49,455 nt of DNA from Betaproteobacteria bacterium SG8_39 (GTDB lineage Bacteria > Pseudomonadota > Gammaproteobacteria > Burkholderiales > SG8-39): NCBI GenBank assembly GCA_001303445.1, contig LJTQ01000012.1:22554-72008 (forward strand), in the 5' to 3' direction. Below are positions 2,806 to 6,714 of the stretch, one piece after another. The notes beneath the pieces were generated by a model. It saw only the letters and a list, made by a program, of their open reading frames with translations, was not told the DNA's origin and did not search any database. Both the position numbers and the translations under genes were made by a program. Every line of letters begins with the position of its first letter. The stretch's first letter is position 1.

Positions 2806-2988
2806 ATGGCCTCGCCCTGCGTGAACGTCTGCGTCATGGACGAGGCGCGCGGCCTGTGCCGCGGTTGCTACCGCACGCTCGACGAGATTGCGCGCTGGTC
2901 GGTCATGCATGACGCCGATAAGCGCGCCGTCATCGCCTTGCTCGAAGCGCGCAAAGGGGCAACCCCGGGGTCAGACCCCTGTGGATAA
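2806..2988 (+). CDS. DUF1289 domain protein (small Cys-rich)
   Basis: MASPCVNVCVMDEARGLCRGCYRTLDEIARW; C-terminus SDPCG and TAA stop lie in the palindrome. Confidence 0.8.
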   Translation: MASPCVNVCVMDEARGLCRGCYRTLDEIARWSVMHDADKRAVIALLEARKGATPGSDPCG

Positions 2989-3022
2989 CTTACCTTCGAG
3001 TTATCCACAGGGGTCTGACCCC
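2967..3022. repeat. Perfect inverted repeat, 24-bp arms, 8-nt loop, with two inverted consensus DnaA boxes
   Basis: ggggtcagacccctgtggataact-taccttcg-agttatccacaggggtctgacccc; TGTGGATAA at 2980-2988 and TTATCCACA at 3001-3009. Confidence 0.95.
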
Positions 3023-3931
3023 AGGCTACCGGACTCGATCCGCGTTCTCGAGCGCGGCTGGCTGTCGTCGAACAACATCGTGCTGCATGACGACGCGGAC
3101 AGCGGCACCGTGATCGACACGGGGTACGTGTCGCATGGCGCGCAGACCGTCGCGCTGGTGCGGCACGCGCTCGAGGGCCGCCGCCTCAGCAGACTGGTAA
3201 ACACCCATTGCCACTCGGACCACATCGGCGGCAACGCCGCGCTTGCGCGCGCGTTCGGCTGCACGATCACGATTCCGACGGGCGAAGCGCGCAATGTCAC
3301 CGCATGGGACACCGAGGCGCTGCACCTCGACGGCTTCGGCCAGCGCTGCGAACGCTTCGCATTCGATTCGACGATGACCGCCGGCGACCGCCTGACGATG
3401 GGCGGGTTCGAGTGGCAGGCGCTGGCCGCCCCGGGCCATGACATGGATTCGCTCGTCCTCTATGCGCCCGAACCGAGGCTGCTGATCTCGGCCGACGCGC
3501 TGTGGGAGAACGGCTTCGGCGTGCTGTTTCCCGAGCTCTATGGCGAGCCCGGCCTCGACGCGACGCGCGCGACGCTCGATCGCATTGCCGCGCTCGACGT
3601 TGCGACGGTCATCCCGGGCCACGGCGCGATATTCAGCGACGTCGACGCGGCGCTCGAGCGGGCCTACGGCCGACTGGACGCCTTCGCGCGCGATCCCGGG
3701 CGGGTCACGCGCAATGCCTTTCGCGCCCTGATCGTTTTCCACCTCCTCGATCGCCAATCCGCGCATGTCGACGAACTCGCGGCATTGCTCGAACAGGCGA
3801 GCTTCTTCGCCATGCTCAACGCGCGCTCATATCGGCTGGAGCCGGGCGCGCTGGCGCAGAAGCTGGTCACCGACCTCGTGGCCGCGGGCGTGCTGCAGGT
3901 CGAGGCCGACGTGGTACGCCCCGCGCCCTAG
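2981..3931 (+). CDS. MBL-fold metallo-hydrolase
   Basis: NTHCHSDHIGGNAALARAF, PGHDMDS, VIPGHG motifs; start uncertain, GTG at 2981 is the first plausible start upstream of the conserved region. Confidence 0.8.
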   Translation: MDNLPSSYPQGSDPRLPDSIRVLERGWLSSNNIVLHDDADSGTVIDTGYVSHGAQTVALVRHALEGRRLSRLVNTHCHSDHIGGNAALARAFGCTITIPTGEARNVTAWDTEALHLDGFGQRCERFAFDSTMTAGDRLTMGGFEWQALAAPGHDMDSLVLYAPEPRLLISADALWENGFGVLFPELYGEPGLDATRATLDRIAALDVATVIPGHGAIFSDVDAALERAYGRLDAFARDPGRVTRNAFRALIVFHLLDRQSAHVDELAALLEQASFFAMLNARSYRLEPGALAQKLVTDLVAAGVLQVEADVVRPAP

Positions 3932-5463: not shown

Positions 5464-6714
5464 TCAGCCGTACTTGCGCAGGTCCTCGATGACCTTGCCG
5501 TCGTTCGGCAGGCTGCCGGGCGCGACCAGCTCGACCTCGCCGCGCAGCTTGGTGACGTCGCGAATCGATCCGACGATCGCCTCGACCAGCCCGGCCGGTC
5601 GATCGTTCGCCTCGCAACGCAACGTCATGCGGTCGTTGCCGGTCTCGCCCTCGACCACCAGACGCGCCTTGGTCACCTCGGGGTGACGGCGCAGCACCTC
5701 GTTCACCTGCTTCGGCGTGACGAACATCGCCCGCACCTTGGTCGTCTGGTCGGCGCGCCCCATCCAGCCCTTGATGCGGGTGTTGGTGCGGCCGCAGGGA
5801 CTCGTCCCCGGCAGGACCGCGGACAGGTCGCCGGTGCCAAAGCGGACCAGCGGGTAGTCCTTGTTGAAGGTGGTGACGACGACTTCGCCCACCTCGCCTG
5901 GCGCCACCGGGTCGCCGGTACCGGGGCGCACGATTTCGACGATCAGCTGCTCGTCGAGAATCATGCCTTCATTGACGCTGCCGTCCGGATTGAGCGACTC
6001 GTAGCCCAACAGGCCGAGGTCCGCTGTCGCGTAAGTCTGGGAAACACCGATGCCGCGCGCGCGCATCGCTTCACGCAGGGCGGGCGGCAGATACTCGGCG
6101 CCGACATGGGCCTTTTTCAGGCAGGACAGATCGACGTTCAGCTCGGCCGCCTTCTCGACGATCAGCTTGAGGAACGACGGGGTGCCGACGAAGGCCACCG
6201 CGCCGAGATCGCGGATCGTCGACACCTGGATCTCGGTCTGCCCGGTGCCGGTGGGCACCACGGTGCAGCCGATGGCGAGCGCGCCCGATTCGAGCATCGA
6301 GCCCGCAGGGGTGAAGTGATAGGCGAAGGTATTGACGACGAGGTCCCCGGCGCGAAAACCGCCGGCATAGAGGCCGCGTGCCGTGCGCCACCAGTTCTTG
6401 CCGAGGCCCTCCGGCTCGTAGATCGGCCCGGGCGAAACAAACAGCTTGTTGAGCTTCTCGAGCGGCGTGGCGTTCAGCCCGCCGAGCGGCGGAGCCGCTT
6501 TCTGCAGCTCGCCAAGATCGGACTTGCGCGTCACCGGCAGCCTGGCGAGTGCCGCGCGCGAGTCGACGCTTTTCGCATCGACTCCTTTGAGAATGCGCCT
6601 GAAGCCGGGCGCGCGACGCTTGGCCAGCGCGATCTGCTTCGGCAGCGCCGCCATGAGCTGCGCCTCGCGCTCGTCCGGCGAGCGGGTCTCGAGCGTGTCG
6701 TAGTGCTCGGTCAT
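5464..6714 (-). CDS. Phenylacetate-CoA ligase family adenylate-forming enzyme
   Basis: PaaK-like architecture: YATADLGLLGYES, PLVRFGTGDLSAV, CGRTNTRIKGWMGRADQTTKVRAMFV. Confidence 0.85.
   Translation of the reverse strand: MTEHYDTLETRSPDEREAQLMAALPKQIALAKRRAPGFRRILKGVDAKSVDSRAALARLPVTRKSDLGELQKAAPPLGGLNATPLEKLNKLFVSPGPIYEPEGLGKNWWRTARGLYAGGFRAGDLVVNTFAYHFTPAGSMLESGALAIGCTVVPTGTGQTEIQVSTIRDLGAVAFVGTPSFLKLIVEKAAELNVDLSCLKKAHVGAEYLPPALREAMRARGIGVSQTYATADLGLLGYESLNPDGSVNEGMILDEQLIVEIVRPGTGDPVAPGEVGEVVVTTFNKDYPLVRFGTGDLSAVLPGTSPCGRTNTRIKGWMGRADQTTKVRAMFVTPKQVNEVLRRHPEVTKARLVVEGETGNDRMTLRCEANDRPAGLVEAIVGSIRDVTKLRGEVELVAPGSLPNDGKVIEDLRKYG

Follow-up and report, generated by a model that had tools for sequence, protein, structure and literature searches.

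A genus-specific REPIN, probably maintained by a single RAYT, whose arms coincide with consensus DnaA boxes

Introduction

Why does a palindrome outside any origin context carry two consensus DnaA boxes? The question arose at positions 2967-3022 of a 49,455-nucleotide stretch of DNA from Betaproteobacteria bacterium SG8_39 (hereafter the window, meaning this whole stretch), where the first-pass annotation had proposed either a dispersed REP/BIME-like element or a DnaA titration or regulatory site. We analysed the source genome (G000; 3.14 Mb, 233 contigs, 84% complete) together with a second species (G083), the sole other genome of the genus compared; both are draft MAGs. The locus set comprised nearly all core matches in the source genome plus the copies of the second species.

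Results

Anatomy of the palindrome and its neighbours

Sequence inspection of the 56-bp palindrome revealed that all 24 bp of the arms pair around an 8-nt loop, as had been described. The left arm (2967-2990, GGGGTCAGACCCCTGTGGATAACT) opens with the REP core palindrome GGGGTCAGACCCC (2967-2979, plus strand), whose central base, in the inward reading, is A, as it is in almost every copy. The adjoining DnaA box TTATCCACA lies on the minus strand at 2980-2988 and is read inward as TGTGGATAA; within it, the GTGG tetranucleotide at 2981-2984 (plus strand), where the 9-mer is nearly invariant, agrees with the GT[AG]G tag known from REPs and may share its role. After the loop TACCTTCG (2991-2998), which is short compared with the rest of the family, the right arm (2999-3022) carries TTATCCACA on the plus strand at 3001-3009, with CCAC at 3005-3008 mirroring GTGG, and ends with the core palindrome GGGGTCTGACCCC (3010-3022, plus strand). 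Thus each arm does hold a DnaA box, but the boxes are not head-to-head as first thought; they are oriented outward, each pointing away from the other. The 13-mer GGGGTCAGACCCC had been called self-complementary, and it is indeed a palindrome, but its central A is left unpaired. When folded as single-stranded DNA the element reached −31.1 kcal/mol, compared with −9.45 ± 2.01 for shuffled sequences (z −10.8).

The palindrome follows an open reading frame for a DUF1289 protein (PF06945; 2806-2988, plus strand), to which the left arm supplies the last codons and the stop. This stop is the TAA at 2986-2988 of the left DnaA box, and the frame is identical in the same-genus species (L173). Downstream, a metallo-beta-lactamase-fold hydrolase (PF00753) is encoded on the plus strand within an open reading frame extending over 3017-3931, its start codon being provisional. 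The window lacks an oriC context, as had been noted: dnaA is located on another contig (C128), flanked on both sides by its own TTATCCACA. An origin or plasmid origin was ruled out by this location and by the metabolic genes that neighbour the palindrome.

The palindrome belongs to a dispersed family of inverted doublets

The core GGGGTCWGACCCC was found at 103 places in the source genome and the reversed control at none, so its occurrence is not due to chance; the arm plus box, GGGTCWGACCCCTGTGGATAA, was found at 63 places. Core-bearing loci numbered 71 in the source genome (49 with box-type arms) and 73 in the second species (60 with box-type arms). The genome-wide count proposed at the outset therefore showed a multi-copy element, and the possibility of a single-copy regulatory palindrome was discarded. 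In its predominant form the repeat is an inverted doublet, GGGGTCAGACCCC-TGTGGATAA-S-T-Y followed by a variable loop and the mirror image, and all 57 box-type doublets face inward, with none outward. Fold z values of the elements ranged from −9 to −11. The window copy is atypical in its spacer only, with 12 nt between the boxes compared with 31-43 in most copies. By a GC3 rule, which is not a full annotation, none of 109 box-type elements was crossed by a coding-like frame, showing them to be extragenic, while coding-like open reading frames terminated within 29 of them, including those for DUF1289 and the RAYT described below. The REP/BIME-like proposal is borne out by the many copies, their inverted-doublet form, their extragenic sites and the position of a RAYT between arms of the same kind, and a mobile palindrome that distributes DnaA boxes is a correct description at the level of sequence.

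Both genomes also contained a second REPIN subtype, GGGGTCAGACCCC-TTC...GAA-GGGGTCTGACCCC, which lacks the box and is more closely spaced (L194, L196, L202, L204 and L205 in the source genome, L230 in the second species); no RAYT belonging to it was found in either. The outer flanks beyond the core palindromes (for example at L015, L026 and L029) often read GCGACnnT ... AnnGTCGC or consisted of A-rich tracts such as GATAAAAAC, and could be extended ends or a target preference.

A single RAYT lies between the same arms

A search for a RAYT (TnpA_REP) gene, as the first reading had suggested, identified one HUH/Y1 transposase gene (PF01797) in the source genome, on contig C11 between arms at 5896 and 6612. 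Its counterpart in the second species likewise sits between the same arms, at the same locus and with the same downstream gene. The RAYT is intact in both species, with 236 aa counted from the first possible start and the terminus ...LSTGV*, the last codons and stop being encoded by the right arm. It scored 49.4 bits against Y1_Tnp (PF01797), above the cut-off, and 73.6 bits against the NCBIfam model REP_Tyr_transpos (NF047646), just below the cut-off of 80; it also matches the solved structure of E. coli TnpA_REP (4er8) and contains an HVH motif and a conserved Y. Only Y1_Tnp was detected in it, and a subclass 2.1.2-type RAYT with a DnaA-like C-terminal domain was accordingly rejected as the source of the box.

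Distant RAYTs from Halomonas and Thioalkalivibrio are accompanied by the same core palindrome without the box. A single occurrence of the full exact arm was recorded outside the genus, in G004 of the same family; all further genomes sampled across the order lacked it. Since the distant palindromes lack the box and the arm is nearly confined to one genus, the box is a local addition to a widespread RAYT palindrome. At the Thioalkalivibrio- and Halomonas-type RAYT loci (L056, L082 and L100), GGGGTCAGACCCC is arranged in tight clusters with other spacers.

The repeats predate the species split and retain their arms

At the junction orthologous to that of the window, the second species carries a single arm, GGGGTCAGACCCCTGTGGATAACTT, while no arm is present there in G058 and G054, which are more distant members of the family. 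The corresponding junction of a close relative thus does carry a REP; its absence there had been listed by the first-pass annotation among the findings that would count against the proposal. Across nine orthologous doublets, 386 of 396 arm positions were identical (97%), whereas loop identity was 0.45-0.76, compared with 0.52 for non-orthologous loops. Constant arms around nearly random loops indicate that the repeats predate the split of the two species and that the arms have been held constant. One element of the source genome, C192:2740, was cleanly missing in the second species, leaving an empty site, and the indel ends at the outer palindromes. This comparison of two draft genomes points to movement of the element.

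At several orthologous junctions the two species carried different REPIN subtypes (source genome C113 and second species C214, C133 and C92, C61 and C10, C169 and C298), and at C61 one subtype was nested within another, a picture suggestive of new copies displacing older ones or landing inside them.

The two arms of a doublet also vary together. The base beside the box was G/G in 34 of the 57 doublets, C/C in 19 and mismatched in 4 (Fisher P 9e-12, approximate because related copies were pooled), and three non-consensus changes were common to both arms, compared with 0.31 for shuffled partners (P 0.0026, approximate for the same reason). This covariation fits pairing between the arms, or a homogenising copying process.

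Most perfect DnaA boxes of the genus lie within the element

Perfect TTATCCACA sites fell within arms in 68 of 73 cases in the source genome and 65 of 69 in the second species, while 96 other genomes of the family contained 0-26 perfect boxes each. Through this repeat, perfect boxes have become about ten times as numerous in the genus. The boxes form dispersed pairs and no datA/DARS-like cluster at a conserved locus. Of the five remaining sites of the source genome, two flank dnaA, two form one inverted pair that precedes an open reading frame resembling xseA (named by eye), and one is at C30:4484.

The xseA-like open reading frame of the source genome is preceded by the closely spaced form TTATCCACA-N5-TGTGGATAA, which recurs with equal spacing in many family genomes and looks, from its sequence, like a conserved DnaA-regulated site; such pairs were seen at L153 (1383-1405, source genome C194), L211 (2053-2075, second species C44) and L253-L257. 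Four genomes of another genus (g3; L246-L249) had a single TGTGGATAA-N32-TTATCCACA pair without the GGGGTCAGACCCC core, which at L249 is near a hemE-like open reading frame (by eye).

Substitutions within the box spare the GTGG segment

The box was intact in 133 of 174 box-type arms, so it is conserved among copies, contrary to one result that might have counted against the initial proposal. Among arms with an exact core, substitutions at box positions 1-9 numbered 4, 8, 3, 3, 1, 1, 0, 0 and 14. The CCAC segment, which reads GTGG on the opposite strand, accounted for 2 of the 34 changes (binomial P 8e-7, approximate because related copies were pooled), and positions at which TTWTNCACA tolerates change likewise accounted for 2 of 34. 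The same tendency was seen in a smaller set of arms chosen by an intact partner arm alone. The ends of the box vary and position 5, which DnaA tolerates, does not, a pattern unlike selection on DnaA-contacted positions; the suggestion of a titration or regulatory site gains no support from it. In the second species the box was broken in 27 of 92 box-type arms. Some breaks were symmetric (C10:2962, C254:787 and C86:974), so that the hairpin survives and both boxes are lost; the variant at C10 and C254 is GGTGGATAA...TTATCCACC.

RAYTs need a GT[AG]G tag (PMC6006769, PMC3733652). GTGG is near-invariant here, but it is located 1 nt inside the outer palindrome, on the loop side, whereas canonical GTAG is 5′ of the foot. 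Because of this difference in position from canonical GTAG REPs, a guide-tag role for GTGG would be a guess from the sequence.

Discussion

We consider it highly probable that the palindrome is a copy of a genus-specific REPIN, maintained by a single RAYT, whose transposase end is at the same time a consensus DnaA box. Two inverted REP units would form one long hairpin when single-stranded, and the RAYT located between the same ends would copy and maintain the REPIN; RAYT relatives act on single strands at replication forks (PMC6006769). If the arm is recognised by the RAYT in its single-stranded, hairpin form, and if GTGG serves as the guide tag, the nine bases TGTGGATAA would belong to the transposase end, which happens to match the DnaA box. 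The invariance of GTGG and the symmetric broken boxes favour this explanation; the loop-side position of GTGG and the coexistence of a box-less subtype for which no separate RAYT was found speak against it. DnaA domain IV of the host aligns to that of E. coli (1j1v, 116 bits), and since the DNA-binding domain is thus of the E. coli type, DnaA would likely bind the REPIN boxes in vitro. Such binding would be a side property of the REP and not the reason for which the repeat is kept.

Alternatively, the host might use the scattered boxes, either to titrate DnaA or to regulate the genes nearby. The element holds 93-94% of the perfect boxes in both species, far from the state of the rest of the family, the host domain IV resembles that of E. 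coli, and the box upstream of dnaA (AAGTTATCCACAGG) equals one arm variant over 14 bases. However, it is the box ends required by DnaA that vary and the DnaA-tolerated position 5 that is conserved, and the second species has lost more than a quarter of its arm boxes, several symmetrically with the hairpin kept. By simple arithmetic, moreover, a 4.6-Mb genome of even composition should contain roughly 35 boxes by chance; the count of about 70 is only about double that, so that the load, though high for this GC-rich family, is not extreme. We therefore regard use by the host as improbable. Pure coincidence deserves more weight, although we think it doubtful; it is a sub-case of the REPIN explanation that differs on binding, in that the arm would resemble a DnaA box and be unbound in the cell. 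If the transposase imposes GTGG, only five bases are left to match by chance, and the restriction of box-bearing arms to one genus and the coexistence of the box-less subtype agree with this. Against it, the match is exact, the adjoining bases also agree with the box upstream of dnaA, and binding to naked duplex would be expected from the E. coli-like domain IV.

A role at the RNA level, in which a hairpin at the 3′ end would terminate or protect transcripts and provide stop codons, seems as improbable as use by the host. The ends of coding-like open reading frames within box-type elements, those of DUF1289 and the RAYT among them, speak for such a role. However, TAA and TGA in the arms give stop codons mechanically, and such a role would leave unexplained why a RAYT lies between the same ends, why the arms have the box-type sequence and how the element spread to roughly 70 loci. 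Even less likely, by analogy with the ABC primosome, the single-stranded REPIN hairpin could act as an A-site that recruits DnaA and then DnaB and primase. The arm would be single-stranded on the lagging-strand template or on an excised circle, and the element would be converted to duplex or tied to replication. If true, the REPIN would be a miniature mobile element that carries its own site for the replication initiator.

Literature searches for the core sequence returned unrelated papers only, and those for REP together with DnaA box returned nothing relevant. In the literature searched, the REPIN described here is the first REP family with a perfect DnaA box in its unit. It offers a natural experiment in which two species possess numerous additional DnaA sites, along with natural controls in the broken-box variants of the same hairpin and the box-less sister subtype in the same genomes. 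With this system one could test directly if strong boxes at scattered sites alter the control of initiation, and if replication proteins are exploited by RAYT elements. The case also advises caution: repeats should be checked for before a DnaA box is called an origin or a regulator.

Among known systems, the REPINs of Pseudomonas fluorescens SBW25 (Bertels and Rainey 2011, PMC3116915) are also extragenic inverted REP doublets with conserved arms and a variable spacer, and are also tied to one RAYT, their singlets being decayed remnants. The present family differs in sequence, in having an arm made of an outer 13-nt palindrome plus a complete DnaA box, and in its lower copy number, dozens and not hundreds. 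GTAG-tagged REPs, REPtrons and TIRtrons (PMC3733652) likewise have palindromic units that bear a motif of four bases, and a RAYT gene located between such units or between terminal inverted repeats; in the present family the motif reads GTGG and is found on the loop side of the short palindrome. The word DnaA is absent from the main text of that paper. In TnpA_REP subclass 2.1.2 the C-terminal region is similar to Bac_DnaA_C (PMC6006769), whereas the present RAYT has Y1_Tnp only and the link to DnaA is in the DNA end, not the protein. Finally, according to the account of Masai 1990 given in PMC6127211, the A-site of the ABC primosome, where DnaA loads DnaB, is a single-strand hairpin whose stem holds a DnaA box, an anatomy that the REPIN would match when single-stranded. 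The A-site so described is a defined priming site, whereas the REPIN is known here from sequence, and a REPIN hairpin has two boxes in its stem, each paired with the complement of the other.
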